Source: Nitrospira sp.
GTDB taxonomy: Bacteria; Nitrospirota; Nitrospiria; Nitrospirales; Nitrospiraceae
Reading direction: 5' to 3'
NCBI GenBank assembly: GCA_035968315.1
Contig: JAVYIN010000005.1
Coordinates: forward strand, 434,001-498,000
Length of the DNA: 64,000 bases
Of this stretch, positions 4,906 to 42,792 are shown piece after piece. A model generated the notes under the pieces. That model saw only the letters and a list, made by a program, of their open reading frames with translations, did no database searches and was not told the DNA's origin. A program made the translations under genes and the position numbers. How positions within the stretch are numbered: the first letter of the stretch is position 1; every line of letters starts with the position of its first letter.

Positions 4906-7107
4906 ATGAGCAACGATTTCGCACAATTCCAAGACGCATTTTTCGAGGAAGCCGCGGAACATCTGGCCATTGTCGAGGAGGGCCTGCTGGCGCTCGAACA
5001 GCACCCCGAGGACCTCGATCTGCTGGCCAAGATCTTCCGCTCGGCCCATTCCATCAAGGGCACAGCCGGGATGTTCGGGTTCAACGCGGTGGCCCAATTC
5101 ACGCACAAGATGGAGACCCTGCTGGATCTGCTGCGCAATGGCCAGAAAGTGGTGACCCCGCAGATTGCCGACCTGCTCTTGAAATCCACCGATTGTCTGA
5201 AGACCCTCATCGAGGCGGCCAAGAGCAATGAGCCGGTCGATAATGAAGTAGTGCAGCGGCTCACCGGCGAACTGGCGGCGGCCAGTGAGTCGGGCGGCCA
5301 GGCGGCGCCTCAGGCCGGAGTGGCTGCGAAGGCGGCGTCCGCGCCGGCTGCCAATCAAGGCCACACCTATATCATCAGTTGGACTCCGCCGGCTTGGCTC
5401 TTCCAGCGGGGTCTTGACCCCTTGCAAATTTTCAAGGAATTGGGCGCCCTGGGCACCTTGTCCGAGGTCACCGTCGATACAACCAAGCTGCCGGAATTGG
5501 CCGCCATGGATCCGGAGACCTGCTATCTGGCCTGGACGATGAAGCTGAATACCGTCAAAGACCGGAAAGTGGTGGAAGGGGTGTTTGAATTTGTTCGTGA
5601 AGACAGCATTCTCAAAATTGAAGAAGGGCACGAGGCGCGAGAGGAAAACCGGCTTCAACCCGCCAGCCCATCGCCTCTGGCCTCGAACCCCTTGCCCATT
5701 GCCTCTGGCCTCGCGCCTGCTGAAGGCGAAGAGCCCAAGCCTTTGGGCGAACTGCTGGTCGAAAGCGGCGCCGTCTCGCGGGAGACGCTGGATAAGGCCT
5801 TGTCGCAGCAGAAGCGCGTCGGCGAAATTCTCGTCGAGCAGCAGGCCGTCACGCCGCAGCAGGTCGAGCAGGCGTTGCTGAAGCAGCGGCAGCAAGAATC
5901 CGCCGCCCACGCCAAGAAGACCGATACGGCCTCCATCCGGGTGGATACCGCCAAGATCGACAAGCTCATCAACCTCGTCGGCGAACTGGTCATCACTCAG
6001 TCGATGCTGAGCGACCTGGGCGCCCGGTTCGAGATGCGCCAGATGCCGATCCTCTTGGAGCGCATGGCGCAGCTGGAACGCAACACGCGCGAAATCCAGG
6101 AACGCGTCATGGGCATCCGCATGCTGCCGATCGGCACCGCCTTCAGCCGCTTCCCGCGGCTGGTCCGCGACCTGTCGGCCAAAGCGGGCAAGAAGATTCA
6201 GCTGGTCCTGTCGGGCGAAGAAACCGAACTGGACAAGACCGTCATCGAATCCATCGGCGATCCCCTGACGCACCTGGTGCGCAATTCCGCCGATCACGGC
6301 CTGGAGCCGCCGGAGGAACGCCTCGATAATAACAAACCCGAGCTGGGCACTATCCGGCTCAACGCCTTCCATGAAGGCGGCAGCATCTGCATCACCGTCG
6401 AAGACGACGGCCGCGGTTTGAACCGCGACAAGATTCTCGCCAAGGGCATCAAGCAGGGCTTGATCACCGAAAACGACAAACTGTCCGACGATCAGATCTG
6501 GGCGCTCATTTTCAAGCCCGGGTTCTCGACAGCGGAAAAAGTGACCGACGTGTCCGGCCGCGGCGTGGGCATGGACGTCGTCAAGCGGAATATCGAAGCC
6601 CTGGGCGGCACCGTCAGCATCAAGACGGCGCTGGGCAAAGGCACCACCTTTACCCTCAAGCTGCCGCTGACCCTGGCCATCATCGACGGCATGACCGTCC
6701 GGGTCGGCCAAGAAACCTACATCGTGCCGCTGCTCTCTATCCTGGAATCCATCCAGCCCAAGCCTGAGGTCATCAAGACCGTGGTGGGCAAAGGCGAGCT
6801 CATCAACGTGCGGGGCACCTACCTGCCGATGATGCGCATGTACGAGGTCTTCTCGTTGCAGCCGGAATACACCGATCCCACCAAGGCGATTCTCCTGATT
6901 CTGGAAACGGAAGGGGAACGGGTCGCGGTCATGGTGGACGAGATTCTCGGCCAGCAGCAGGTGGTCATCAAGAGCATGGAGCAGAATTTCCGCAAAGTCG
7001 AAGGCGTGGCCGGCGCCACGATCCTCGGCGACGGCACCGTGGGCTTCATTCTGGATGTCCGGGGCCTCTTGGAAATGGCCCGTCGAGGGACTCCGGTGGC
7101 GGCCTAG
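4906..7107 (+). CDS. cheA: Chemotaxis histidine kinase CheA
   Basis: A 733-residue kinase. The N-terminal HPt domain has phospho-accepting H48 in RSAHSIKGTAGMFGF. A P2-like regulator-docking domain spans about residues 150-235. After a low-complexity linker (about 240-275) comes a short region with two E-I-L-V-E / L-L-V-E-S-G repeats, then the P3 dimerisation helices (from about 345). The ATPase domain shows HLVRNSADHGLEPPE (N box, around 455), DDGRGLN (G1) and SGRGVGMDVV (G2). A CheW-like P5 domain ends the protein. All kinase motifs are intact. The linker is encoded by a copy of the intergenic heptamer repeat (5626-5720). ATG 4906 follows CGAGGATATT. Confidence 0.96.
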   Translation: MSNDFAQFQDAFFEEAAEHLAIVEEGLLALEQHPEDLDLLAKIFRSAHSIKGTAGMFGFNAVAQFTHKMETLLDLLRNGQKVVTPQIADLLLKSTDCLKTLIEAAKSNEPVDNEVVQRLTGELAAASESGGQAAPQAGVAAKAASAPAANQGHTYIISWTPPAWLFQRGLDPLQIFKELGALGTLSEVTVDTTKLPELAAMDPETCYLAWTMKLNTVKDRKVVEGVFEFVREDSILKIEEGHEAREENRLQPASPSPLASNPLPIASGLAPAEGEEPKPLGELLVESGAVSRETLDKALSQQKRVGEILVEQQAVTPQQVEQALLKQRQQESAAHAKKTDTASIRVDTAKIDKLINLVGELVITQSMLSDLGARFEMRQMPILLERMAQLERNTREIQERVMGIRMLPIGTAFSRFPRLVRDLSAKAGKKIQLVLSGEETELDKTVIESIGDPLTHLVRNSADHGLEPPEERLDNNKPELGTIRLNAFHEGGSICITVEDDGRGLNRDKILAKGIKQGLITENDKLSDDQIWALIFKPGFSTAEKVTDVSGRGVGMDVVKRNIEALGGTVSIKTALGKGTTFTLKLPLTLAIIDGMTVRVGQETYIVPLLSILESIQPKPEVIKTVVGKGELINVRGTYLPMMRMYEVFSLQPEYTDPTKAILLILETEGERVAVMVDEILGQQQVVIKSMEQNFRKVEGVAGATILGDGTVGFILDVRGLLEMARRGTPVAA
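5626..5720. repeat. Heptamer repeat element embedded in-frame in the cheA linker
   Basis: The DNA reads GGGCACGAGGCGCGAGAGG, a spacer, then repeated GCCTCTGGCCTCG / CCCCTTGCCC units, which is the left-arm/right-arm layout of the intergenic elements. It encodes the Ala/Pro/Ser linker between the P2-like region and P3, without interrupting the frame. Confidence 0.75.
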
Positions 7108-7914: not shown

Positions 7915-10602
7915 ATGTTGACCTGGTTTGGCAATAGACAAACGGCGACGAAGTTGATCCTGGGCTATGCCCTGATGGGGCTCATCATGTGCGCCCTGGG
8001 CGCGGCTGTGGCGCAGGGATTGATGGATGTGCGGGAAAAGTTGCGCATCGTCTATGAAGATTACACCGTGGCCGCCACGGATCTGGCCAAAGTGTCGGTC
8101 AATTTGATGCGGTACCGGAACCGGGTGGCCTTGCTGCTTTCGACCGCGGATCCGGCGGCTGCGGAGAAGACGCGCGCGGAGCTGCCTCCGATCAAGGAAG
8201 CCATGCTCAAATCGCTGGGCGATTACGCGGCCACCGTGCTGCGCGTATCCAAATCCGGGCGGGACGAAGCCAAGGATCTCAAGACATTACGGGAGAAGTT
8301 AGACAGTTATCTCGAATCGGCTAGTGAGGTGTTGGTCATGGACGCACAGGCGCGGCAGGCCAAGACACCGGCCGAAGCCGCCCAGTTGACCGAGAAGGCG
8401 AAAGTCTTCAACACGCAGCAGGTCTTGCTCAAGCTGATGGCGACCAATGCGGCGCTGGATGAGTTGCTGAAGACGGTGCAAGACGTGGCGAAGGACATGA
8501 ACGACGACGGACGGGCGGCGGCGGCCAATGCCCTCGTGACGCTGGCGGCCGGCACGGCGCTGGCGATCGCGGTGGGGATGCTGCTGGGCTGGCTGATCGC
8601 GCGGTTCCTATCCCGGAATCTGACCGACGTGCTGACGGCGGCGCAGGCGTTGGGGGATGGGAATCTTGCGGCGCGGTCAAGCGTGGCCACGACCGACGAA
8701 GTGGGCGCGCTGGCGACAGCCTTCAACGACATGGGTACGTCGTTGGAACAGGCGAGCGCCAAGCAACAGGAGATGATGCAGCAGGCGCAAGTGGCGGCGG
8801 CGGAGATCAAGGGTGTGACCAACGCCATCGGCAAGGCGCAGGCCGTCATCGAGTTCAACCTGGATGGGACGGTGATCACGGCGAACGACAACTTCCTGAA
8901 TTGCCTGGGTTATACGCTGCCGGAGATCCAGGGGCATCATCATCGCCTGTTCTGCGATCCGGCCTATACGGCCAGCGGGAACTATCAAGCCTTCTGGCAG
9001 AAACTGAACCGGGGCGAGTTCGATGCGGGGGTCTATCGCCGAATCGGCAAGGGCGGCAAGGAGATCTGGATTCAGGCCTCCTACAACCCGATCCTCGATG
9101 TGAACGGCAAGCCCTACAAGGTCATGAAGTTCGCGACCGACATCACCGCGCAGAAGAACCAGGCGGCGGAGGCTGAGGGCAAGATCAGCGCCATCGGCAA
9201 GGCCCAGGCCGCCATCGAGTTCAAGCTGGATGGCACGGTGATGACGGCGAACGACAATTTCCTGAACTGCCTGGGCTATACGCTGCCGGAGATCCAGGGG
9301 CAGCATCATCGGATGTTCTGTGATCCGGCCTATACGAGCACCGGCGAGTACGCGGCCTTCTGGCAGAAGCTGAACCGGGGCGAGTTCGATGCGGGCGTGT
9401 ACCGCCGGATCGGCAAAGGGGGCAAGGAAATTTGGATTCAAGCCTCCTACAACCCGATCGTGGACGCCAATGGCAAGGTCTACAAGGTCGTGAAGTTTGC
9501 GACGGATATCACGCCGCAGAAGAAGGCGCAGGCCGAAATGGAGCAACTGGTGGCTGAAGCGCAGGGCGTGCTGGGGCGGCTGGCCAGCAACGATCTGACC
9601 GAGCAGATGCGCGGCCAATATCAAGGTGAGCTGGCCAAGATCAAGGACAGCATCAATGCCGTGGTCCACAACCTGACCCAGACCATGACGACCGTGCGTG
9701 AGGCGGTGGAAGCCGTCACGGCGGGGTCGGAGCAGATCAGCAAGGGGAGTGAAGACCTCTCGCAGCGGACGAGCGAACAGGCCAGTTCGCTGGAAGAGAC
9801 CAGCGCGTCCATGGAAGAAATGACGAGCACGGTCAAACAAAACGCGGACAACGCGAAGCAGGCCAATCAACTGGCGAGCGCGGCGCGCGACACCGCCGAC
9901 AAGGGCGGGGCGGTGACCACGAAAGCCATTGAGGCCATGGGGGCGATTAATCAGAGCAGCAAGAAGATCGCCGACATCATCACGGTCATCGACGAGATCG
10001 CCTTCCAGACTAACTTGCTGGCCCTGAATGCCGCCGTGGAAGCGGCGCGGGCGGGAGAACATGGCCGCGGGTTTGCCGTGGTGGCGGCGGAAGTGCGCAA
10101 CCTGGCGCAGCGGTCGGCGACGGCGGCGAAGGAGATCAAGGGGCTCATCAACGAGTCGATCCAGCGGGTGAATGACGGGAGCGAACTGGTGGATCAGTCC
10201 GGCAAGACGCTGGAAGAGATCGTGAGCTCGGTGAAACGGGTGAGCGACATCATCGCGGAGATCACGGCGGCCTCGCAGGAGCAGGCCAGCGGGATCGACC
10301 AGGTGAACAAGGCGATCATGCAGATGGACGAAGCGACGCAGCAGAACGCGGCCTTGGTGGAAGAAACGACGAGCGCCAGCCAGTCCATGAAGGCGCAGGC
10401 TCAGGAGCTGATGCGCCAGGTGGAGGCGTTTAAGGTGAATATGAGTGGGCCAGGGGCCAGAGGCGAAGGGCACGGGGCACGGGTGAAGGCAGCGGCCAAG
10501 CCCGTGGCTCAGAAGTCGGCTCCTCGGGAGACGCCGAAGCCCGTCGGAGTGGCCTCGGGGAACGGCCATGCGGCCAAGAAGGATGAGTTTGAGGAGTTCT
10601 AA
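7915..10602 (+). CDS. Methyl-accepting chemotaxis protein 1 (4-helix-bundle sensor, HAMP, two PAS)
   Basis: An 895-residue transmembrane receptor. TM1 lies at about 12-35, and a periplasmic helical bundle (40-205) resembles 4HB_MCP sensors. TM2 (about 207-228) ends in [11 protein letters not shown] and leads into HAMP (to 282). Two nearly identical PAS domains start near residues 305 and 427, each with an FCDPAYT and a [12 protein letters not shown] segment. The signalling domain (580-840) has the conserved hairpin [23 protein letters not shown] Gly/Arg/Pro linker encoded by heptamer repeat DNA precedes a KKDEFEEF end; EFEEF fits the aromatic pentapeptide that tethers CheR. ATG 7915 follows AAAAAAAGGAG. 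Ligand unknown. Confidence 0.95.
10447..10490. repeat. Heptamer repeats encoding the MCP1 C-terminal linker
   Basis: GGGCCAGGGGCCAGAGGCGAAGGGCACGGGGCACGGG-type units in-frame, encoding the [12 protein letters not shown] linker between the signalling domain and the EFEEF tail. Corresponding tracts lie at 15175-15246, 19368-19437, 28685-28758 and 31850-31890 in the other receptors. Confidence 0.75.
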
Positions 10603-13039: not shown

Positions 13040-13122
13040 GTGTCTATCACTACAACAGATTGTGCTGGGAAGCGTCCGCGATTCGGCTCCGTCTCCGGCG
13101 CCAATACTAAGGAGGAGTGATC

Positions 13123-15351
13123 ATGTCGCTGCGAAATTTGTTTGCAAAAGAATCCACGGACAATGACTTGAAGGCGAGAGTCGAAGCGATCGACCGGGTG
13201 CAGGCCGTCATCGAATTCAATCTGAATGGCACGATCATTACGGCCAACGACAACTTCTTGAAAACTCTCGGCTATACGCTTCAGGAAGTGGAGGGGCAGC
13301 ACCATCGGATGTTCTGTGATCCGGCCTATACGAGCACGGGCGAGTACGCGGCCTTTTGGCAGAAGCTGAACCGGGGCGAGTTCGATGCGGGCGTGTACCG
13401 CCGGATCGGCAAGGGGGGCAAAGAGGTCTGGATTCAGGCCTCCTACAATCCGATTCTGGACGCCAACCACAAGCCCTACAAGGTCGTGAAGTTCGCGACC
13501 GACATCACGGCCGACAAGAACCGCAACGCCGAGTTCGAGGGCAAGCTCAACGCCATCAACAAGACGCAGGCGGCGATCGAGTTCAGCCTGGACGGCACGG
13601 TCATCACGGCGAATGACAATTTTCTGAATTGCCTGGGCTACACACTCAATGAAATCCAGGGGCAGCACCATCGGATGTTCTGTGATCCGGCCTATACGAG
13701 CACGGGCGAGTACGCGGCCTTTTGGCAGAAGCTGAACCGGGGCGAGTTCGATGCGGGCGTGTATCGCCGGATCGGCAAGGGGGGCAAAGAGGTCTGGATT
13801 CAGGCCTCCTACAATCCGATCGTGGACGCCAAGGGGAAAGTCTACAAGGTCGTGAAGTTTGCGACCGACATTACGGCCGACAAGAACCGCAACGCCGAGT
13901 TCGAGGGCAAGCTCAACGCCATCAACAAGGCGCAGGCGGCGATCGAGTTCAGCCTGGACGGCACGGTCATCACGGCGAATGACAATTTTCTGAATTGCCT
14001 GGGGTACACACTTAATGAAGTCAAAGGGCAGCACCACCGGATGTTCTGTGATCCGGCCTATACGAGCACGGGCGAGTACGCGGCCTTTTGGCAGAAGCTG
14101 AACCGGGGCGAGTTCGATGCGGGCGTGTACCGCCGGATCGGCAAGGGGGGCAAAGAGATCTGGATTCAGGCCTCCTACAATCCGATCGTGGACGCCAAGG
14201 GGAAAGTCTATAAGGTCGTGAAGTTTGCGACCGACATTACGGCGCAAAAAAAAGCCCAGGCTGAATTGGAAGCCTGCATGGCCGAAGCGCAGCAATCGCT
14301 CGGCGCCTTGGCGCAAGGCGATCTCACGCAGCAAATGAGCGGGACCTATCAGGGCGAACTGGAGCGGATCAAGACCAGTATCAATACGGCGCTCAATAAT
14401 TTGACGCACACGATGATCACCGTGCGTGAGGCGGTGGAAGCCGTGACGGCGGGGTCGGAGCAGATCAGCAAGGGGAGCGAAGACCTCTCGCAGCGGACGA
14501 GCGAACAGGCCAGTTCGCTGGAAGAGACCAGCGCGTCCATGGAAGAGATGACGAGCACCGTGAAGCAGAATGCGGATAACGCGAAGCAGGCCAATCAATT
14601 GGCCATCGCGGCGCGGGACACCGCCGACAAGGGCGGGGCGGTGACCACGAAAGCCATTGAGGCCATGGGGGCGATCAACCAGAGCAGCAAGAAGATCGCC
14701 GACATCATCACGGTCATCGACGAGATCGCCTTCCAGACCAATCTCTTGGCCTTGAATGCCGCGGTCGAAGCGGCGCGGGCCGGGGAGCACGGCCGCGGCT
14801 TTGCCGTGGTGGCGGCGGAAGTGCGCAACCTGGCGCAGCGGTCGGCGACGGCGGCGAAGGAGATCAAGGGGCTCATCAACGAGTCGATCCAGCGGGTGAC
14901 CGACGGGAGCGAGCTGGTGGATCAGTCCGGGAAGACGCTGGAGGAAATCGTGAGCTCGGTGAAACGGGTGACCGACATCATCGCGGAGATCACGGCGGCC
15001 TCGCAGGAGCAGGCGAGCGGGATCGATCAGGTGAACAAGGCGATCATGCAGATGGACGAGACGACGCAGCAGAACGCGGCGCTGGTGGAAGAGACGACGA
15101 GCGCCAGCCAGTCCATGAAGGCGCAGGCCCAGGAGCTGATGCGCCAGGTGGAAGCGTTCAAGGTGAATATGAGTGGGCCAGGGGCCAGAGGCGAGGGGCG
15201 AGGGGTCGGAGGAGGGGCGAGGGGCGAGGGGGCAGGGGCACGGGTGAAGACGGTGGCCAAGAGCCCGGCCGCCCGGCCGGCGCCGAAACCCGCCGGAGTG
15301 GCCTCAGGGAACGGCCATGCAACCAAGAAGGATGAGTTTGAGGAGTTCTAA
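13123..15351 (+). CDS. Soluble methyl-accepting chemotaxis protein 2 with three tandem PAS domains
   Basis: A 742-residue receptor without any membrane segment. A short N-terminus leads directly into three PAS domains starting near residues 24, 146 and 268; each contains [19 protein letters not shown] and a GKE(V/I)WIQASYNP strand. A HAMP-like connector (about 385-430) and the full signalling domain (430-690, with the same hairpin as the other receptors) follow. The protein ends with a Gly/Arg repeat-encoded linker and DEFEEF. ATG 13123 has GGAGGAG 5 nt upstream; GTG 13117 is a weaker alternative. The PAS repeat is also a DNA repeat of 366 bp. Such cytoplasmic PAS receptors usually sense redox state or a bound cofactor. 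Confidence 0.94.
13190..14258 (+). repeat. Three tandem 366-bp PAS-encoding repeats within mcp2
   Basis: The segment encoding [17 protein letters not shown] recurs at about 13318, 13684 and 14050, exactly 366 bp (122 codons) apart, with very few nucleotide differences. This indicates recent tandem duplication or ongoing gene conversion of the PAS module. Confidence 0.85.
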
Positions 15352-15709: not shown

Positions 15710-15778
15710 ATTAGTGATGAGTGATCAGTGAGGGGGGGCGAATGTACCTTCCCGACGCTCATCACGGATCACTACATG
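15710..15778. repeat. TGATGAG-type heptamer hairpin leading into the cheW3 ribosome-binding site
   Basis: TGATTAGTGATGAGTGATCAGTGAGG forms the left arm and GCTCATCACGGATCACTACATG the right arm. The right arm merges into the GAGGGAGGATG ribosome-binding region of cheW3. CATCACTTCATG remnants of the same type precede cheW1, cheW2 and cheW4. Confidence 0.65.
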
Positions 15779-15790
15779 AGGGAGGATGTT

Positions 15791-16294
15791 ATGGCAGCGG
15801 TAGCAGCCGACACGACGGTAAAAGTGAGCAATCAGCAGAGCGGCCTGACCACTGACGGCAGCCAGTTTTTGACGTTTAGCCTGGGTGAGGAGCTGTACGG
15901 GGTGGATATCCTCCGGGTGCAGGAAATCAAGGGCTATACGGCCGTCACGAAGATTCCGAACACGCCGCCTCATATCAAGGGGGTGCTGAACCTCCGGGGC
16001 ACCATCGTCCCGATCGTGGAATTGCGGACCAAGTTCGGCCTGCCGACGATCGAGTACACCATGTTCACGGTCATCGTCGTGGTCGTGGTGCGAGACAAGG
16101 TGATGGGGCTGATCGTGGATGCCGTGTCCGATGTGCTCGATATCGAGAAGAAAGATATTCAGTCGGCGCCCGAGTTTGGGGCTAAAGCCGATGTGACGTT
16201 CCTGAATGGCATCGGCAAATCCGGCGACAAGCTGATCGCGCTGCTCGACATCGACCGGCTGCTGACCGACGCCGATATGGCGGAGGCTGCGTAA
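15791..16294 (+). CDS. cheW: Chemotaxis coupling protein CheW, copy 3
   Basis: A 167-residue CheW with the same core as the other copies (QFLTFSLGEELYGVDILRV, NLRGTIVPIVELRTKFGLP). It carries small changes: V-V-V-R-D-K-V-M-G-L where the others have V-V-V-Q-D-K, and S-A-P-E-F-G-A-K-A-D-V-T instead of A-A-P-E-F-G-A-K-V-N-V-T. ATG 15791 follows GAGGGAGGATGTT; upstream in-frame starts fall inside a TGATGAG-type repeat. It is followed 95 bp later by the globin-MCP gene at 16390. The variable C-terminus is the shortest of the four. Confidence 0.95.
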   Translation: MAAVAADTTVKVSNQQSGLTTDGSQFLTFSLGEELYGVDILRVQEIKGYTAVTKIPNTPPHIKGVLNLRGTIVPIVELRTKFGLPTIEYTMFTVIVVVVVRDKVMGLIVDAVSDVLDIEKKDIQSAPEFGAKADVTFLNGIGKSGDKLIALLDIDRLLTDADMAEAA

Positions 16295-16389: not shown

Positions 16390-19300
16390 ATGGGATTGAA
16401 CGTCGAGTTACTGGAGCAGAGTTTCAAGTTGGTCGCCCCCAAAGGGGAGGCGCTGGTCAGCCGGTTCTATGAGCGGCTATTTCAGAAATATCCCTCCGTC
16501 AAGCCTTTGTTCAAAGAGACCTCCTTGCCTGAGCAGAAGAAGAAGCTGCTGGCCTCGCTGGTCTTGGTCATGCAAAATCTCCGGCATCCGGACAAGCTGA
16601 CGAACGCCTTGCAGACGCTGGGCGCCCGCCATGTCGGATATGGCGCGCAGCCGGGGCATTATGACGCGGTGGGAGAGAATCTGCTGGCGGTGCTGGGCGA
16701 ATTCGCCGGCCCGGCTTGGACGCCGCAAGTCAAACAAGCCTGGACCGAAGCCTATGGCGCCATCAAGACCATCATGCTGCAAGGAGCTGCCCGCCAGGCC
16801 GGCTCTGGCCGGTCGCACAATCTGGCAGGACCGTCATCTTCCACACCGCGATATCCATCGGACAAGGGGGCGTCTATGTCGAGCTGGTTTGGCAATCTGA
16901 AAACCGTGACGAAGCTGATGCTGGGGTTTGCACTCACCGGGGTGATCATGGCCGGGGTCGGCGTGATCGCGCTCATGAATATGAACCAGCTCAATCTGGG
17001 CGCCCAGTCGATCTATGAAACGAATCTTCAGCCGATCAAGCTGCTGGCGGAAATGCGCGGGCGCACGCACCAAGTGCGCGCCAACGTGATTCAGCACATC
17101 GCGGCGCCGACCTCAGAGGAAAAGGCGGAGATCGAAGCGACGCTCAAGAAGCTCGAAGGCGAAATCGCCGAGCGCTGGCCGAAGTATGAGCCTTTGATGA
17201 CCTCCTCAGTGGAGCGGGAGGTGTATCCGAAGTACCGGGAGGCCTGGGCCGACTATCTCAAGGCGCGCGATGCGCAGACCTTGCCGCTCAGCCGCGAGGG
17301 GAAGGACAAGCAGGCCTATCAGGTCATGAAGACGGAGGTCGCGCCCAAATACAAGCGGGTCGTGGAGCATTTGAGCACCCTCATCGATGACAATGAGAAA
17401 CAGGCGAAGGAGAACTTTGACGCCGGTCAGCAGGCGTATCAAGGCTCACGGAATCTGCTCATCGGCCTCATCGCCACTGGCATTGTCGTGGGCCTTGTTT
17501 TGGGCTGGTGGATCGCGAGATTTCTGTCCCGGAATCTGGCCGACGTGCTGACGGCGGCGCAGGCCTTGGGGAGCGGGGACCTGGCGGCGCGGTCTTCCGT
17601 CGCGACGACCGACGAAGTGGGGGCGCTGGCGACGGCCTTCAACGACATGGGCACCTCGCTGGAGCAGGCCTCGGCCAAACAGCAGGAAATGATGCAGCAG
17701 GCGCAGGCGCAGGCGGCGGAGATCAAAGGCGTGACCAATGCCATCGGCAAAGCGCAAGCCGTCATCGAGTTCAACCTCGACGGGACGGTGATTACCGCCA
17801 ACGACAACTTCCTCAATTGCCTGGGCTATAGCCTCCAGGAGATCCAGGGGCAGCATCACCGGATGTTCTGTGATCCGGCCTATACGAGCACAGGCGAGTA
17901 CGCCGCCTTCTGGCAGAAGCTGAACCGGGGCGAGTTCGATGCGGGCGTGTATCGCCGGATCGGCAAAGGGGGCAAGGAGATCTGGATTCAGGCCTCCTAC
18001 AATCCCATTATGGATGCGAATGGCAAGCCCTATAAGGTTATGAAGTTTGCGACCGACATCACGGCGGACAAGAATCGCAATGCCGAATTCGAGGGGAAGA
18101 TCAATGCCATTAATAAGGCGCAAGCGGCCATCGAGTTCAAGCTGGACGGCACGGTGATGACGGCGAACGACAACTTCCTGAATTGTCTGGGCTATACACT
18201 GCCGGAGATCCAGGGGCAGCACCACCGGATGTTCTGTGATCCGGCCTATACGAGCACAGGCGAGTACGCCGCCTTCTGGCAGAAGCTGAACCGGGGCGAG
18301 TTCGATGCGGGCGTGTATCGCCGGATCGGCAAGGGGGGCAAGGAAATTTGGATTCAGGCCTCCTACAATCCGATCGTGGATGCCAACGGCAAGGTCTACA
18401 AGGTCGTGAAGTTTGCGACGGATATCACGCCGCAGAAGAAGGCGCAGGCCGAAATGGAGCAATTGGTGGCTGAAGCCCAGGCGGTGTTGGGGCGGCTGGC
18501 CAGCAACGATCTGACGGAGGAGATGAATGGGAAGTACCAGGGGGAATTGGAAAAGGTGAAGAGCAGTATCAACGCCGTGGTCCATAACCTGACCCAGACC
18601 ATCATGACCGTGCGCGAGGCGGTGGAAGCCGTGACGGCGGGGTCGGAGCAGATCAGCAAGGGCAGCGAAGACCTCTCGCAACGGACGAGCGAACAGGCTA
18701 GTTCGCTGGAAGAGACCAGCGCGTCCATGGAAGAAATGACGAGCACGGTCAAACAAAATGCGGATAATGCAAAGCAGGCCAATCAACTGGCAAGTGCCGC
18801 CCGCGACACCGCCGACAAGGGCGGGGCGGTGACCACGAAAGCCATTGAGGCCATGGGGGCGATCAACCAGAGCAGCAAGAAGATCGCCGACATCATCACG
18901 GTGATCGATGAAATTGCCTTCCAGACCAATCTCTTGGCCCTGAATGCCGCGGTGGAAGCGGCGCGGGCGGGGGAACATGGGCGCGGGTTTGCCGTGGTGG
19001 CGGCCGAAGTGCGCAACTTGGCGCAACGGTCGGCGACGGCGGCGAAGGAGATCAAGGGGCTCATCAACGAGTCGATCCAGCGGGTGACCGACGGGAGCGA
19101 GCTGGTGGATCAGTCCGGGAAGACGCTGGACGAGATCGTGAGCTCGGTGAAACGGGTGAGCGACATCATCGCGGAGATCACGGCGGCTTCGCAAGAACAG
19201 GCGAGCGGGATCGACCAGGTGAACAAGGCGATCATGCAGATGGACGAGACCACGCAGCAGAACGCGGCCTTGGTGGAAGAGACGACGAGCGCCAGCCAGT

Positions 19301-19539
19301 CCATGAAGGCGCAGGCCCAGGAGCTGATGCGCCAGGTGGCCGCCTTTAAGGTGAATATGAGTGGGCCAGGGGCCAGAGGCGAGGGGCGAGGGGTCGGAGG
19401 AGGGGCGAGGGGCGAGGGGCCAGGGGCTCGGGTGAAGACGGTGGCCAAGAGCCCGGCCGCCCGGCCGGCGCCGAAACCCGCCGGAGTGGCCTCAGGGAAC
19501 GGCCATGCAACCAAAAAGGATGAGTTTGAGGAGTTCTAG
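16390..19539 (+). CDS. Globin-fused transmembrane chemoreceptor (MCP3)
   Basis: A 1049-residue fusion. Residues 1-135 are a flavohemoglobin-type globin with Tyr27 (B10), Phe41 (CD1), Gln49 (E7) and proximal His81 (F8, in GARHVGYG). A Ser/Pro-rich linker (136-162) runs into Met163, where a complete MCP begins (SSWFGNLKTVTKLMLGFAL, as at the start of MCP1). Then come TM1 (about 172-194), a periplasmic helical region, TM2 (355-375), HAMP, two PAS domains (from about 450 and 573), the signalling domain (about 727-990), a repeat-encoded linker and DEFEEF. Standard MCP topology would put the globin in the cytoplasm. An AAGGGGG sequence precedes the internal ATG at 16876, so a globin-free form could also be made. 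Oxygen or NO is the likely ligand (inference). Confidence 0.93.
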   Translation: MGLNVELLEQSFKLVAPKGEALVSRFYERLFQKYPSVKPLFKETSLPEQKKKLLASLVLVMQNLRHPDKLTNALQTLGARHVGYGAQPGHYDAVGENLLAVLGEFAGPAWTPQVKQAWTEAYGAIKTIMLQGAARQAGSGRSHNLAGPSSSTPRYPSDKGASMSSWFGNLKTVTKLMLGFALTGVIMAGVGVIALMNMNQLNLGAQSIYETNLQPIKLLAEMRGRTHQVRANVIQHIAAPTSEEKAEIEATLKKLEGEIAERWPKYEPLMTSSVEREVYPKYREAWADYLKARDAQTLPLSREGKDKQAYQVMKTEVAPKYKRVVEHLSTLIDDNEKQAKENFDAGQQAYQGSRNLLIGLIATGIVVGLVLGWWIARFLSRNLADVLTAAQALGSGDLAARSSVATTDEVGALATAFNDMGTSLEQASAKQQEMMQQAQAQAAEIKGVTNAIGKAQAVIEFNLDGTVITANDNFLNCLGYSLQEIQGQHHRMFCDPAYTSTGEYAAFWQKLNRGEFDAGVYRRIGKGGKEIWIQASYNPIMDANGKPYKVMKFATDITADKNRNAEFEGKINAINKAQAAIEFKLDGTVMTANDNFLNCLGYTLPEIQGQHHRMFCDPAYTSTGEYAAFWQKLNRGEFDAGVYRRIGKGGKEIWIQASYNPIVDANGKVYKVVKFATDITPQKKAQAEMEQLVAEAQAVLGRLASNDLTEEMNGKYQGELEKVKSSINAVVHNLTQTIMTVREAVEAVTAGSEQISKGSEDLSQRTSEQASSLEETSASMEEMTSTVKQNADNAKQANQLASAARDTADKGGAVTTKAIEAMGAINQSSKKIADIITVIDEIAFQTNLLALNAAVEAARAGEHGRGFAVVAAEVRNLAQRSATAAKEIKGLINESIQRVTDGSELVDQSGKTLDEIVSSVKRVSDIIAEITAASQEQASGIDQVNKAIMQMDETTQQNAALVEETTSASQSMKAQAQELMRQVAAFKVNMSGPGARGEGRGVGGGARGEGPGARVKTVAKSPAARPAPKPAGVASGNGHATKKDEFEEF
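16861..16878 (+). promoter_or_regulatory. Putative internal ribosome-binding site and start codon at the globin-MCP junction (MCP3)
   Basis: GACAAGGGGGCGTCTATG lies in-frame inside the fusion. The AAGGGGG is 5 nt from the ATG at 16876, whose downstream sequence matches the true N-terminus of MCP1. It looks like the retained start of a once separate mcp gene. Confidence 0.55.
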
Positions 19540-25601: not shown

Positions 25602-28600
25602 ATGGGATTGAACGTCGAGCTATTGGAGCAGAGTTTCAAGCTGGTGGCGCCGAAGGGCGAAGCGCTGGTGAGCCGGTTCTACGAACGGCTGTTTCAGAAG
25701 TATCCCGCCGTCATCCCCCTCTTCAAGCACACGACGCTGGCGGAACAGAAGAAGAAGCTGCTGGCCTCCCTGGTGCTGGTCGTGCAGAACCTCCGCCGTC
25801 CAGACAAACTGACCGAGGCCTTGCAGACGCTGGGCGCCCGCCATGTGGAGTATGGCGCGCTGCCGGCGCATTACGAGGCGGTCGGAGAGAACTTATTGGC
25901 GGTGCTGGCGGAGTTCGCCGGCCCGGCTTGGACGCCGCCAGTCAAACAGGCCTGGACCGAGGCCTGTGGGGCCATCACCACGATCATGCTGCAAGGGGCG
26001 GCGCGCTACCATGGCGGGCCCAGCCCGTCTTCCACGGCATCACCGGCGCCGGGCACACCGGCATCGGCACCACGACATCCATTGCCATCACCAAAGGGGG
26101 CTTCCATGTTGACCTGGTTTGGAAATCTGAAGACCGCGACGAAACTGATGCTGGGGTTTGCCTTCACCGGGGCCATCATGGCGGGGCTGACCGGCATCTG
26201 CCTCTATAACGCGGCGGCGCTGCGCGATAACACCGAGAACATCCAGAACGTGCAGTTGAAGCCGCTGATGATGATCACCAGAGTGCGTGGGCTGATTCAC
26301 CAGGTGCGGGCGCAGACCATCACGGCCATTTTAACTACGAGCGCCGCCGACCGTGAGGCCGCGCTGGCCAAGGTTGGCGAGCTGGGCGGCCAGATTGCGG
26401 AAACTCGCGACGCCTTTTCCAAGACGATTCGCTCCGAAGAGGTCCGTGCTGCGTACGATCAATTCGTCGCCAAATATGACGACTACCGGACCTACCGTGA
26501 GACGGTGATCTTCAAGGCTTTGCGGGAGGGGCGGCAGGCCGATGCCCTGGCCGCGATGAAGGGCGAGGGAGCCGCGAAGTTCGGCGCATCGATTGAGGCG
26601 ATCAACAACGTGGTCGACACGAAGACGAAGATCGCCCAGCAGAAATACGACGGGGCGGTTCAGACCTTCATGGATACCAAGATGATCATGCTGGGGGCGA
26701 GCGCGGGAGGGATTGCGCTGGGGCTGCTGTTCGGGTGGCTGCTGGCGCGGTTCATCGCGAAGAACTTGGCCGATGTGCTGACGGCGGCGCAGGCCTTGGG
26801 GGGCGGGAACCTGGCGGCGCGGTCTTCGGTGACGACGCGGGATGAAGTGGGCGAACTGGCGGCGGCCTTCAATGACATGGGCACCTCGCTGGAGCAGGCC
26901 TCGGCCAAGCAGCAGGAGATGGTCTCCACACTGAACAATGCGCGGGCCAACCTCCTGATGTGCGACCGGAACCTGGTGATCACCTATGTGAACGAGGGGG
27001 CGCTGACCTCCTTCCGCGAGATCGAAGCGGACCTGCGCAAAGTGCTGCCGGGCTTCGACAGCAGCAAGCTGGTGGGAACCTGCATCGATGGATTCCATAA
27101 AGACGCGGGCCGCATCCGCCGGATCTTGGAGAATCCGAAGAATCTCCCGCACCGGGCCGACATTCAGCTGGGCCCCTTGACCTTGGACCTGATGGTGAAG
27201 GCCATCACCAACGAGAAGGGCGAATATGTGGGCAATTCGCTCGAATGGCTGAACGTGACGCAAACGCGCAAGTTGGAAGTCGAGACCGCGCGGTTGCAGG
27301 CGGGCCTGGATAACGCCGCCGTGAACGTGATGATTTGCGACCGGAACTATCAGGTCGTCTATATGAACAAGGCCTCGCAGGCGACCTTGCGCAAGGCCGA
27401 GCCGATGATTCAGCAGGGGTTGCCGGGCTTCCGGGCCGAGAAGGTGATCGGGAGCTGCATCGATCAATACCATAAGAATCCGGGGGCGATCCGGCAGATT
27501 CTGGACAATCCGAAGAACCTGCCGCATCGGGCGGAGATCAAGGTGGGGCCGTTGACCCTGGATCTGGCGGCGTCGGCGATCGTCAACGCGCAGGGCGAAT
27601 ATCTGGGCAACTCGGTGGAATGGGCGGATGTCACGGCGATCAAGGCGGCTCTGACCGATGTGGACCGGCTGGTGACGGCGGCGGCCGCCGGGCAGTTGTC
27701 GGGCCGGATCGACGCCACGAAGTTTGAAGGGGGCTATCGCGCCCTTTCCGAAGGCATCAACCGGCTCTTGGATGCGGTGGTGGCGCCGTTGCATGAGGCG
27801 CAGAGCGTGCTCAGCGCCTTGGCGGCGAACGATCTGACGCAGTCGATGACCGGGAATTACCAAGGCGAGTTCGAGCAGATGAAGAGCAGCTTGAACAGCG
27901 CTCTCGGGAACTTGACCCAGACGATGACCACCGTGCGCGAGGCGGTGGAAGCCGTGACGGCGGGGTCGGAGCAGATCAGCAAGGGGAGCGAGGACCTCTC
28001 GCAGCGGACAAGCGAACAGGCCAGTTCGCTGGAAGAGACCAGCGCGTCCATGGAAGAGATGACGAGCACGGTCAAACAAAATGCGGACAATGCCAAGCAG
28101 GCCAATCAACTGGCGAGCGCGGCCCGCGAGACCGCCGACAAGGGCGGGGCGGTCACAATCAAGGCTGTCGAGGCCATGGGGGCGATCAACCAGAGCAGCA
28201 AGAAGATCGCCGACATCATCACGGTGATCGATGAAATTGCCTTCCAGACCAACCTCTTGGCCCTGAATGCGGCGGTGGAAGCGGCGCGGGCCGGGGAGCA
28301 TGGAAGAGGGTTCGCCGTGGTGGCGGCCGAGGTCAGAAACCTGGCCCAGCGGTCGGCGACGGCGGCGAAGGAGATCAAGGGGCTCATCAACGAGTCCATC
28401 CAGCGGGTGAATGACGGGAGCGAACTGGTGGACCAGTCCGGCAAGACGCTGGAAGAGATCGTGAGCTCGGTGAAACGGGTGAGCGACATCATTGCGGAGA
28501 TCACGGCGGCCTCGCAGGAGCAGGCCAGCGGGATCGACCAGGTGAACAAGGCCATCATGCAGATGGATGAGACCACGCAGCAGAACGCGGCGCTGGTGGA

Positions 28601-28874
28601 AGAGACGACGAGCGCCAGCCAGTCCATGAAGGCGCAGGCTCAGGAGCTGATGCGCCAGGTGGCCACCTTTAAGGTGAACCTGACTGGGCCAGGGGCCAGA
28701 GGCGAGGGGCGAGGGGTCGGAGGAGGGGCGAGGGGCGAGGGGCCAGGGGCACGGGTGAAGGCCGCGGCCAAGCCTGTGGTTCAGAAGGCGGCTCCGCAGG
28801 ACGCGCCGAAGCCCGCCGGAGTGGCCTCGGGGAACGGCCATGCGGCCAAGAAGGATGAGTTTGAGGAGTTCTAA
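25602..28874 (+). CDS. Globin-fused transmembrane chemoreceptor (MCP4)
   Basis: A 1090-residue fusion. The N-terminal globin (1-135) is close to that of MCP3, with Tyr27, Phe41, Gln49 and His81 conserved. A Ser/Pro/Ala linker ends in PSPKGASM, where Met169 begins an MCP with the same LTWFGN opening as MCP1. TM1 (180-200), a periplasmic four-helix region and TM2 (363-383) precede HAMP. The cytoplasmic part differs from MCP1-3: two PAS-like domains of another type (from about 443 and 565; M-(C)-D-R-N and NLPHRA segments), then a second HAMP-like region and the common signalling domain (780-1035). The end is the repeat-encoded linker and DEFEEF. CCAAAGGGGG precedes the internal ATG at 26106. Confidence 0.93.
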   Translation: MGLNVELLEQSFKLVAPKGEALVSRFYERLFQKYPAVIPLFKHTTLAEQKKKLLASLVLVVQNLRRPDKLTEALQTLGARHVEYGALPAHYEAVGENLLAVLAEFAGPAWTPPVKQAWTEACGAITTIMLQGAARYHGGPSPSSTASPAPGTPASAPRHPLPSPKGASMLTWFGNLKTATKLMLGFAFTGAIMAGLTGICLYNAAALRDNTENIQNVQLKPLMMITRVRGLIHQVRAQTITAILTTSAADREAALAKVGELGGQIAETRDAFSKTIRSEEVRAAYDQFVAKYDDYRTYRETVIFKALREGRQADALAAMKGEGAAKFGASIEAINNVVDTKTKIAQQKYDGAVQTFMDTKMIMLGASAGGIALGLLFGWLLARFIAKNLADVLTAAQALGGGNLAARSSVTTRDEVGELAAAFNDMGTSLEQASAKQQEMVSTLNNARANLLMCDRNLVITYVNEGALTSFREIEADLRKVLPGFDSSKLVGTCIDGFHKDAGRIRRILENPKNLPHRADIQLGPLTLDLMVKAITNEKGEYVGNSLEWLNVTQTRKLEVETARLQAGLDNAAVNVMICDRNYQVVYMNKASQATLRKAEPMIQQGLPGFRAEKVIGSCIDQYHKNPGAIRQILDNPKNLPHRAEIKVGPLTLDLAASAIVNAQGEYLGNSVEWADVTAIKAALTDVDRLVTAAAAGQLSGRIDATKFEGGYRALSEGINRLLDAVVAPLHEAQSVLSALAANDLTQSMTGNYQGEFEQMKSSLNSALGNLTQTMTTVREAVEAVTAGSEQISKGSEDLSQRTSEQASSLEETSASMEEMTSTVKQNADNAKQANQLASAARETADKGGAVTIKAVEAMGAINQSSKKIADIITVIDEIAFQTNLLALNAAVEAARAGEHGRGFAVVAAEVRNLAQRSATAAKEIKGLINESIQRVNDGSELVDQSGKTLEEIVSSVKRVSDIIAEITAASQEQASGIDQVNKAIMQMDETTQQNAALVEETTSASQSMKAQAQELMRQVATFKVNLTGPGARGEGRGVGGGARGEGPGARVKAAAKPVVQKAAPQDAPKPAGVASGNGHAAKKDEFEEF
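26091..26108 (+). promoter_or_regulatory. Putative internal ribosome-binding site and start codon at the globin-MCP junction (MCP4)
   Basis: CCAAAGGGGGCTTCCATG occurs in-frame at the end of the globin linker. The AAAGGGGG is 5 nt from ATG 26106. The same arrangement at the same relative place in MCP3 suggests it predates the duplication and is maintained. Confidence 0.55.
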
Positions 28875-29323: not shown

Positions 29324-32005
29324 ATGAAAGAGCGTTGGAACAATCTCAATCTGACCACCAAGATGCTCATGGTGACCAGCCTTACGATCCTCGCGACGAT
29401 GCTGGGATTGGTTGTTTGGTTGAGCGGCCAAATGCGCGCGGATCTGATCTCGCTGTTGCAGGTCAGAAGCACGGTGATCCAACGCCAGATCGAAGTCACC
29501 CGCGCCTATATCGCCAAACAATATGTCGGCAAGGTCAAGGCTTCCAGCGGCGGCACGATTAAAATCGCGCAGGACCACAGCGCGCCGGATACGATCCCCT
29601 TTCCCGCGACGGCTACCCGCGAAATGGCCGAGGAGCTGTCGAATGAAGGCATCTTCAACGCCCGTGTGATCAGCAGCAAACCCCTCAATCCGATGAATAA
29701 GCCGAATGACGCGTTTGAAGAGGAGGCCATCAAGGCGCTGGCCGGCGGCGAAAAGGAAGTCGTGCGGATCGAGCCGGTCAATGGTGTGATGACCTTTCGG
29801 CGCATGACGCCCGATATTATCCGCAGCGAAGCCTGCGTCAGCTGCCATGTCGGCACCAAGGTCGGTGACATGGTCGGCGCGATTTCCTTGCAGATGCCGA
29901 TGACGAAGGCGCTGGCGCAAGTGGACAGCAACGTCAAGATGCTCTATCTGGCGGCCGGATTCTCCGCCACACTGATGGGATTGGTGATGTTCGTGAGCCT
30001 GCGTTCGCAGGTGATTCAGCCGATCCGGCACCTGCAAACCGTCGTGACTAGTCTGACGCATGGCGATCTGGCCGCCCGCGCGACGATCGAATCGCGGGAT
30101 GAAGTGGGGCGGCTGGCGACCTCGTTCAATGAAATGGGCGATTCGCTGGAGCAGGCCTCGGCCAAGCAGCAGGAGATGGTGCAGCAGGCGCAAGCGGCGG
30201 CGGCGGAGGTCAAGAGCGTGACCAACGCCATTGGCAAGGCGCAAGCCGTCATTGAGTTCAACTTGGATGGCACGGTCATCACGGCGAACGACAACTTCCT
30301 GACGTGTCTCGGCTATCAATTGAACGAGATTCAGGGCCAGCATCACCGGCTGTTCTGCGATCCGGCCTATACGAGCACCGGCGAGTACGCGGCCTTCTGG
30401 CAGAAGCTGAACCGGGGGGAGTTCGATGCGGGCGTCTATCGCCGGATCGGCAAAGGGGGCAAGGAGATTTGGATTCAGGCCTCCTACAACCCGATCCTCG
30501 ACGTGAACGGCAAGCCAAGCAAGGTCATGAAGTTCGCGACCGACATCACGGCCCAAAAGAACCAGGCGGCGGAGGCTGAGGGCAAGATCAGCGCCATCGG
30601 CAAGGCCCAGGCTGCCATTGAGTTCAATCTGGATGGCACGGTGATGACGGCGAACGACAATTTCCTGAACTGCCTGGGCTATACGCTGCCGGAGATCCAG
30701 GGGCAGCATCACCGGATGTTCTGTGATCCGGCCTATACGAGCACCGGCGAGTACGCGGCCTTCTGGCAGAAGCTGAACCGGGGCGAGTTCGATGCGGGCG
30801 TGTATAAGCGGATTGGCAAGGGTGGCAAGGAAATTTGGATTCAGGCCTCCTACAACCCGATCGTGGACGCCAACGGCAAGGTCTACAAGGTGGTGAAGTT
30901 TGCGACGGATATCACGCCGCAGAAGAAGGCGCAGGCCGAAATGGAGCATTTGGTGGCCGAAGCGCAGGGCGTGCTGGGACGGCTGGCCAGCAACGATCTG
31001 ACCGAGGAGATGCGCGGCCAGTATCAAGGCGAGCTGGCCAAGATCAGGGACAGCATCAATGCCGTGGTCCACAACCTGACGCAGACCATGACGACTGTGC
31101 GTGAGGCGGTGGAAGCCGTCACGGCGGGGTCGGAGCAGATCAGTAAGGGGAGCGAAGACCTTTCGCAGCGGACGAGCGAACAGGCCAGCTCGCTGGAAGA
31201 GACCAGCGCGTCCATGGAAGAAATGACGAGCACGGTCAAACAGAACGCGGACAATGCGAAGCAGGCCAATCAGCTCGGCCTGGCGGCGCGGGACGTGGCC
31301 GAGAAGGGCGGGGCGGTCACGAAACGCGCGATCGACGCGATGGGTGAAATCAATCAGAGCAGCAAGAAGATCGCCGACATCATCACGGTGATCGATGAAA
31401 TCGCGTTCCAGACCAACCTCTTGGCCCTGAATGCCGCCGTGGAGGCGGCGCGGGCCGGTGAGCACGGACGAGGCTTTGCCGTAGTGGCGGCTGAGGTCAG
31501 AAACCTGGCGCAGCGGTCCGCGAGCGCGGCGAAGGAGATCAAGGGGCTCATCAATGAGTCCATCCAACGGGTCAATGACGGCAGCGCGCTGGTCAATCAA
31601 TCCGGCCAGACGCTGGAGGAGATCATGGTCTCGGTCAAGCGTGTCACCGACATCATCTCGGAGATCACGGCGGCCTCACAGGAGCAGGCCAGCGGGATCG
31701 ATCAGGTGAACAAGGCGATCATGCAGATGGACGAGACGACGCAGCAGAACGCGGCGTTGGTTGAAGAGACGACCAGCGCCAGCCAGTCCATGAAGGCGCA
31801 GGCTCAGGAGCTGATGCGCCAGGTGGAGGCGTTTAAGGTGACTGTGAATGGGCCAGGGGCGAAAGGCGAGGGGCCAGGGACACGGGTGAAGGCCGTGGCC
31901 AAGCCCGTGGTTCAGAAGGCGGCTCCGCAGGAATCGCCGAAGCCCGCCGGAGTGGCTTCAGGGAACGGCCATGCCGCCAAGAAGGATGAGTTTGAAGAAT
32001 TCTAA
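29324..32005 (+). CDS. Methyl-accepting chemotaxis protein 5 with periplasmic c-type heme domain
   Basis: An 893-residue receptor. TM1 (about 12-33) is followed by a periplasmic domain (34-205) resembling the DUF3365/Tll0287-type sensors, including a CVSCH motif (C171, C174, H175) that should bind heme c covalently. TM2 (206-228), HAMP (to 282), two PAS domains (from about 305 and 427), the signalling domain (about 580-840) and a shortened Gly/Arg linker with DEFEEF follow. The signalling domain differs slightly from the others ([20 protein letters not shown]). Unlike the four other receptors it has no adjacent cheW and carries its own sigma-28 promoter. CGGAGG precedes ATG 29324. A redox or gas signal is likely (inference). 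Confidence 0.94.
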
Positions 32006-40196: not shown

Positions 40197-41015
40197 ATGG
40201 AATACGAGATTTCTCCTGATGAATTTCAGCGGTTCCGGACGTTGATCTACGACGAGAGCGGGATTTCGCTGAGCGAGCAGAAGAAGTCGCTCCTGGCCTC
40301 CCGCCTCTCCAAACGCCTGCGTGATCTGGGGCTGGACACGTTTTCGGACTACTATGAAAAGGTGACGCTGGAAACGTCGCGTGAGGAATTCACGCGGATG
40401 CTGGATCTGATTTCCACCAACAAGACCGATTTTTTCCGGGAACCGAAACATTTCGATTTTCTCCGTGACCGGATTCTTCCGGAGTTGACCCAGCTCAAGC
40501 GCGTGCGCATCTGGTCGTCGGCGTCGTCGACCGGCGAAGAGCCGTACACGATCGCCATGACGCTCTACGACGGTGTGCAGAATCCCTCCCAATGGGATTT
40601 TAAAATCCTGGCCTCCGATCTTTCGACTCGCGTGTTGGCCAAGGCGGCATCGGGCACCTATGACGAGGAGCGCGTCCGCGATGTGCCGGAGGAGATCGTC
40701 AAGCGGCATTTTCTCCGCGGCCGCGGCGAGAGCGCCGGCATGCTCAAGGTCAAGCCTCATCTGGCGGACATGATCCGGTTCCGGCGCATCAATCTGATGG
40801 ACGATCAGTTTCCCATCAAGAGCCCGCTGGACCTGATCTTTTGCCGCAATGTCATGATCTATTTCGACCGGCCGACCCAGGAAAAGCTGGTCAATAAGTT
40901 CCATCGGTACTTGAAACCGGGCGGGTATTTGTTCATCGGGCACTCCGAGAGTTTGCAGTGGGTGACCCATCCCTTTAAAACGCTGGCCCCGACGATTTAT
41001 CAGAAGGAGCGGTAA
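40197..41015 (+). CDS. cheR: Chemoreceptor methyltransferase CheR
   Basis: A 272-residue CheR. An N-terminal helical domain (1-75; ESGISLSEQKKSLLASRLSKR) precedes a SAM-dependent methyltransferase domain. Visible motifs are NKTDFFREPKHF, R-I-W-S-S-A-S-S-T-G-E-E-P (SAM-binding loop), D-L-I-F-C-R-N-V-M-I-Y-F and the end G-G-Y-L-F-I-G-H-S-E-S. CheR methylates receptor glutamates using S-adenosylmethionine. The beta-subdomain that binds a receptor C-terminal pentapeptide appears to be present, matching the EFEEF tails of all five receptors here. ATG 40197 follows GGAGAG. cheD follows after 5 bp. Confidence 0.96.
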   Translation: MEYEISPDEFQRFRTLIYDESGISLSEQKKSLLASRLSKRLRDLGLDTFSDYYEKVTLETSREEFTRMLDLISTNKTDFFREPKHFDFLRDRILPELTQLKRVRIWSSASSTGEEPYTIAMTLYDGVQNPSQWDFKILASDLSTRVLAKAASGTYDEERVRDVPEEIVKRHFLRGRGESAGMLKVKPHLADMIRFRRINLMDDQFPIKSPLDLIFCRNVMIYFDRPTQEKLVNKFHRYLKPGGYLFIGHSESLQWVTHPFKTLAPTIYQKER

Positions 41016-41739: not shown

Positions 41740-42792
41740 ATGGCCAAAATACGCGTACTGACCGTTGACGATTCCGCGCTCATGCGGCAGGTGCTGGCCT
41801 CGCTTCTCGCCAAGGACCGCGAGATCGAGGTGATCGGATCCGCTCCCGATCCCTACATTGCCCGCGAGAAGATCAAAGCGTTGAATCCGGACGTCCTGAC
41901 GCTTGATGTCGAAATGCCCAAAATGGACGGGCTGACCTTTCTTGAAAAGCTGATGCGGGGCCGCCCGATGCCGGTCATCATGGTGAGTTCTCTGACGGAA
42001 GCCGGCTGCGAGACCACCTTGCGGGCCTTGGAACTCGGAGCGGTGGATTTCATCACCAAACCCAAAATCGATCTTCGGGAAGGGATGGAGGAGGTGTCGC
42101 AGGACTTGATCTCCAAGATCAAGGCGGCGGCAAGAGCGACGGTGCGCCCCAGGGAGGCTGCGGCTTCGGGGGAAAAGGCCCCTCCGAAACTTCTCGGGTC
42201 GGCCATGATCAAGACGACCGATACGATCATCGCCATTGGGTCCTCGACCGGCGGCACCGAGGCGGTGAAAAACGTGCTCGAAGTGCTGCCGCCCAATACG
42301 CCGCCCATTGTGATCACCCAGCATATGCCGGAACGGTTTACGAAGACCTGGGCCGATCGCATGAATCAACTGTGCCGGATTTCCGTCAAGGAAGCGGAGG
42401 ATGGCGACAGTGTGCTGCCGGGCCACGCCTTGATCGCGCCGGGCAACTATCACATGACGCTGGTCCGGAGCGGCGCGCGCTATTCGGTCCGCATCAATCA
42501 AAATGAACCGGTCAACCGCCACCGCCCGTCGGTGGACGTCATGTTCGATTCGGTGGCGCAATATGCAGGCGCCAACGCGATCGGGGTGATTCTCACGGGC
42601 ATGGGCGGCGATGGCGCCAAGGGGATGCTGGCGATGAAGCAGGCCGGCGCCTACAACATCGCCCAAGATGAGGCGAGCTGTGTGGTCTTCGGCATGCCGA
42701 AGGAAGCGATCAAAATGGGCGGCGTCGATAAGGTGCTGCCGCTCAACGATATTCCCAGCGCCATTCTGACCGAGGTGTCCCGTCGTTCGTAA
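41740..42792 (+). CDS. cheB: Chemoreceptor methylesterase CheB
   Basis: A 350-residue CheB. The receiver (1-125) has [12 protein letters not shown] and phospho-acceptor D56 in [12 protein letters not shown]. The esterase domain (about 160-350) has the catalytic triad S169 (GSSTGGTEA), H195 (TQHMPERFT) and D291 ([11 protein letters not shown]). It removes methyl groups from receptors after phosphorylation by CheA, and so opposes CheR. ATG 41740 lies close to the repeat element between cheD and cheB. Two small STAS genes follow immediately. Confidence 0.96.

Follow-up and report, generated by a model that had tools for sequence, protein, structure and literature searches.

The gene that starts at position 16390 of the window (the whole 64,000-nucleotide stretch of Nitrospira sp. 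DNA that was analysed) probably encodes two chemoreceptors from two in-frame starts, a globin-bearing protein of 1049 amino acids and a globin-free protein of 887 amino acids. The second start would lie at the joint between the globin and the receptor, and its conservation in related fusion genes is the principal evidence for this reading. The relevant features, together with the unfused receptor MCP1 used for comparison, are as follows.

16390..16794, + strand: F-family globin domain, residues 1-135 (Pfam, PDB sequence matches, AlphaFold)
16795..16875, + strand: 27-residue Ser/Pro/Gly linker, predicted to be unstructured, bearing the putative internal ribosome-binding site
16864..16870, + strand: Shine-Dalgarno-like AAGGGGG, 5 nt ahead of the joint ATG (sequence; anti-SD duplex -10.5 kcal/mol)
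16876..16878, + strand: in-frame ATG of the joint, encoding residue 163, the putative second start (unfused receptors have their N-termini at the equivalent position)
16876..19539, + strand: predicted globin-free receptor, 887 aa, TM1-4HB (periplasmic)-TM2-HAMP-PAS-PAS-MCP (Pfam, hydropathy)
16903..16986, + strand: TM1, residues 172-199 (TM-like by hydropathy)
17443..17526, + strand: TM2, residues 352-379 (TM-like by hydropathy)
7915..10602, + strand: MCP1, an unfused receptor that shares this N-terminus; AAGGAG precedes its ATG (Pfam, alignment)

The ATG at 16390 opens an uninterrupted reading frame of 1049 codons (16390-19539). Pfam and hydropathy gave the domain order globin, linker, TM1, 4HB, TM2, HAMP, PAS, PAS, MCP, with PF00042 at residues 25-127 (60.7 bits), 4HB_MCP_1 at 169-349, HAMP at 374-426, MCPsignal at 799-954 and the two PAS domains between the latter two. 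All parts of a transmembrane MCP with a 4HB sensor (TM1-4HB-TM2-HAMP-MCPsignal) were thus found, in agreement with the original prediction of a globin, a Ser/Pro linker and a complete transmembrane MCP in a single frame. Because of the positions of the two TM-like segments the globin, N-terminal of TM1, is expected to be cytoplasmic. Structure prediction, which had been proposed as a check, gave a good model of the globin (residues 1-137, pLDDT 93.4), but the model of residues 1-433 was poor overall (pLDDT 62, with low values at residues 137-207), and contact between globin and receptor could not be judged from it. Near the C-terminus, window 19357-19425 encodes a Gly/Arg-rich low-complexity stretch (GARGEGRG...) ahead of the DEFEEF end; the stretch occurs again in several MCPs of the window, to which the DEFEEF end is common.

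The globin belongs to the F family and lacks a reductase. The four pocket residues named originally are present (TyrB10 Y27, PheCD1 F41, GlnE7 Q49, HisF8 H81), and in an alignment of 16 relatives they were invariant or nearly so. The best solved relatives in a PDB sequence search were HGbRL, Hell's Gate globin I (HGbI), Vitreoscilla haemoglobin (VHb) and flavohaemoglobins, and the AlphaFold model of residues 1-137, with its 3/3 fold, matched HGbI with TM 0.86/0.90 at 1.1 A. The protoglobin family PF11563, to which the globin of HemAT belongs (PMC6194562), scored only 22.9-24.5 bits, below the cut-off of 25, and HemAT was absent among the PDB sequence matches at 1e-5; a HemAT-class globin was therefore rejected. 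No FAD/NAD reductase domain was found in the Pfam scan of the protein, which is thus not a flavohaemoglobin proper. Taken together, the solved relatives, the match to HGbI and the sub-threshold PF11563 score identify an F-family globin without reductase, and the claim that it differs in class from that of HemAT was borne out. The protein has neither the protoglobin class nor the solubility of HemAT and the S-family globin-coupled sensors. Judging from the conserved pocket residues, the domain would bind haem and O2 or NO.

The joint reads AAGGGGG-CGTCT-ATG, with the spacing of 5 nt given in the original prediction, and the product sizes predicted there, 1049 and 887 residues, agree with the reading frame. 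The anti-SD duplex at 16876 compares with -8.3 kcal/mol at the gene's own start, and only 2.6% of the Met codons elsewhere in such genes (n=584) reach -8 kcal/mol. The anti-SD was taken as standard, since a pattern search found no match to the 16S 3' end of this genome. Downstream of the joint ATG, the likeness to the N-terminus of MCP1 that had been noticed originally amounts to 52% identity over 33 residues, and unfused homologues begin at the residue equivalent to the joint ATG; the unfused 4HB homologues from the genus scan, about 30% identical, were used for start positions only. In 60-nt windows of this gene the predicted mRNA structure was -10.6 at the joint versus -9.5 at the globin start, the joint not being unusually unstructured. 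No sigma-70-type site was found that could serve as internal promoter for the short form of the 16390 gene, which is weak evidence.

Two further copies of the fusion, both missed in the original prediction, were found, the second in the window and the third at G000:C5:515374, 17 kb past the window end.

15728..16294, + strand: cheW directly upstream of the 16390 fusion; the reading frame starts with GTG, and an internal ATG may be the true start
25602..28874, + strand: second globin-receptor fusion, 1090 aa; globin 88%, linker 45% and sensor region 35% identical to the 16390 gene
26093..26108, + strand: joint of the second fusion, AAAGGGGG-CTTCC-ATG, with the ATG at 26106 (anti-SD duplex -10.7 kcal/mol)

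Among the three copies the globins are 88-91% identical, the linkers 28-45% and the sensor regions 29-35%. At the joint of the third copy ATC stands in place of ATG, and the next codon is TTG, with an SD of -11.3 kcal/mol. A match to the Aer2 PAS structures 3vol, 4hi4 and 6ceq was found for the PAS domain of the second fusion. The genes lie in a chemotaxis cluster with CheA at 4906, CheR at 40197 and CheB at 41740; the receptors at 7915, 13117, 16390 and 25602 each have a cheW directly upstream, and a fifth receptor is located at 29324. MCP2 (13117-15351) contains three near-identical PAS repeats and probably starts not at the GTG at 13117 but at the ATG at 13123, which is preceded by AAGGAGGAG.

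The joint start was then sought in related fusion genes, counted after removal of three duplicate-contig rows. In 28 of 30 distinct Nitrospirota genes the linker contained an in-frame ATG preceded by a good SD. For the gammaproteobacterial genes a mechanical test gave 33 of 39, or 32 of 39 without L160, whose match looks accidental; the rate at other places in these genes predicts about 12%. The SD at the joints is as strong as that at the genes' own starts (anti-SD duplex). An in-frame start with an SD at proper spacing is thus kept in relatives. In different linkers the SD lies in different reading frames (K-G, Q-G-E, R-S, R-R, E-E), indicating that nucleotides rather than residues are what is kept. 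The start has been lost in L049, L138, L141, L161, L164 and L172, and L167 is borderline, so it is not essential everywhere. L049, whose partner is CheW, retains the SD, with the following ATG out of frame, and gammaproteobacterial pairs of similar sequence are split: L137 and L173 keep the site, L138 and L172 have lost it. No comparable start follows the globin in three globin-CheA fusions, in which other domains flank the globin.

Signs of selection at the nucleotide level were also found. Among 15 distinct orthologues from the QGEKTM clade, with a mean synonymous codon difference of 45%, the best windows of 4-6 codons at the joint ranked 1 or 2 of about 605 in synonymous conservation, and in a second clade (4 genes) the joint windows tied for first. 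Formal p-values overstate the case throughout because the genes are related. The Glu codon at -12, which forms GAGG, is GAG in all 25 of 25 gammaproteobacterial genes, against a background GAG share of 44-47%; where a G follows the Glu codon at other places, the share is 44%. In both phyla the minimum of predicted mRNA structure, taken over 60-nt windows, fell precisely on the joint ATG (-6.6 and -6.8 kcal/mol, compared with about -13 to -14.6 kcal/mol at other Met codons), although purine-rich linkers alone lower mRNA structure and are therefore a partial confounder of this minimum. This comparative evidence argues strongly that the internal start has been maintained across relatives.

It was important to consider whether the site might be kept, or merely left over, for other reasons. 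The SD and ATG could have been inherited from an unfused receptor gene and now be unused, only the long receptor being made. Unfused receptors do have the same start and SD, and the site is gone from several lineages; yet it persists in two phyla, between globins down to 55% identical and despite the extent of synonymous change, and neither the invariant GAG nor the structure minimum at the ATG is what a disused site would lead one to expect, which makes this explanation unlikely. Many recent independent fusions could mimic such persistence, but the fused Nitrospirota globins, with the gammaproteobacterial L047 inside, form one group in the globin tree, apart from the single-domain globins, with modest support (89/90). 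It is still less probable that the SD-like stretch slows ribosomes at the domain boundary, helping the globin to fold before the receptor, and initiates nothing. The stretch does lie just past the globin domain in soluble and transmembrane forms alike, but slowing needs neither an ATG at 5-8 nt nor low mRNA structure, both of which are kept, and the globin-CheA fusions share the globin boundary yet lack the site. Slightly less credible again is the explanation that the linker residues (E-E-x-x-M, Q-G-E-K-T-M) are kept for the sake of the protein and the SD is a by-product: residues are alike within clades, whereas between clades they differ, the nucleotides being preserved in other frames, and synonymous codons at the site are constrained. 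An assembly or frame artefact, globin and receptor being two genes, was rejected as scarcely credible in view of the three fused copies here and of the many independent assemblies, single-contig genomes among them, in which the fused frame is open.

Globin fusions of this kind are widespread. Among the Nitrospirota they were found not only in this genus but also in a sister genus (13 of 29 genomes) and in genera that belong to other families of the class. The majority are soluble proteins of the globin-PAS-MCP type (e.g. L038, L033 and L037), and the transmembrane form, found in this genome and one other MAG (L039, L043), is a minority variant. In one gammaproteobacterial order F-globin relatives, mostly fused to PAS-MCP, were present in 13 of 13 genomes, and in the class as a whole relatives at 1e-33 were detected in 64 of 369 genomes, many with long frames. 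The fusion, being common to several Nitrospirota genera and many Gammaproteobacteria, is therefore old. The origin proposed in the original prediction, in which a globin gene upstream of a receptor gene lost its stop, is unproven; no upstream globin gene merely missing its stop was seen. No unfused orthologue without globin was found in 12 sister genomes, where the sensor part downstream of the joint is also missing. In one MAG the same globin precedes three partners, a 4HB receptor, a Tll0287 receptor and CheW. Several other arrangements were observed: the same globin in frame with CheW in a protein of 330 aa (L049:6001-6990, a Nitrospirota MAG); CheA-like kinases of Gammaproteobacteria in which an F-type globin precedes the kinase core (L129, L144 and L145, globin match at 1501); two tandem globins before one PAS-MCP receptor (L047:5350-6210, a gammaproteobacterial MAG); and an MCP tail that directly follows the first ~40 residues of the globin, apparently what a deletion has left of a fusion (L057:5878-6432).

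According to the two-start reading, initiation at 16390 would yield a receptor whose F-family haem globin lies in the cytoplasm before TM1, attached through a flexible linker, and initiation at 16876, directed by its own Shine-Dalgarno sequence in the linker, the same receptor minus the globin. From the sequence features described above we infer that the second start is used. Both forms would enter the same chemoreceptor arrays through their shared HAMP and MCP parts, possibly also as mixed dimers, and the ratio of the two starts would therefore set the share of receptors under globin control. The globin might sense O2, sense NO or scavenge gas near the receptor. In the second fusion, where a PAS domain resembles the haem-PAS of Aer2, the short form would look like an Aer2-type oxygen receptor, the globin being an added layer. 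On balance we favour a broader reading, in which the F-globin receptors of Nitrospirota and Gammaproteobacteria constitute a conserved two-isoform system with a selected internal start, a set ratio of globin-bearing to globin-free receptors and adjustable haem control of the chemoreceptor array.

The combination of globin, PAS and MCP domains is already known and is not unique to the 16390 gene. In HemAT-type receptors, too, a haem globin at the N-terminus is linked to an MCP signalling domain, and HemAT has no TM segments. Unlike HemAT, the 16390 gene combines a PF00042 F-family globin with a transmembrane receptor and a putative internal start. PAS+globin+MCP proteins were listed in 2018 for Corallococcus, Nitrospira defluvii and others (N. 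defluvii and six others) and treated as cytoplasmic (PMC6194562). They share the domain combination and probably include soluble relatives of the 16390 gene but, in the part of that account drawn on here, are described without a TM form or a second start. Aer2 receptors have a PAS domain like that of the second fusion but no globin. HGbRL of Methylacidiphilum (3wfw), the closest solved sequence, is an F-type globin fused to a signalling-type domain, although its partner is Roadblock/LC7 and its fold is site-swapped. The device proposed here, an internal in-frame start through which a signalling protein is made in a long and a short form, is known from CheA-L/CheA-S of E. coli (PMC11005335) and AerR of Rhodobacter (PMC6199135). 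CheA-S and short AerR drop a phospho-transfer part or a short N-terminal part, whereas here a whole haem-type domain would go. The literature searched, whose coverage was incomplete, contained no description of an internal start in globin receptors of this type.

If the two-start reading is correct, a class of probable oxygen receptors is annotated as one protein although each gene makes two, and translation could set the sensory make-up of the array. The joint would then offer a clean case, open to testing, of an internal start that has long been conserved where two domains are fused, and a transmembrane, F-globin branch would be added to a field defined by the soluble HemAT.
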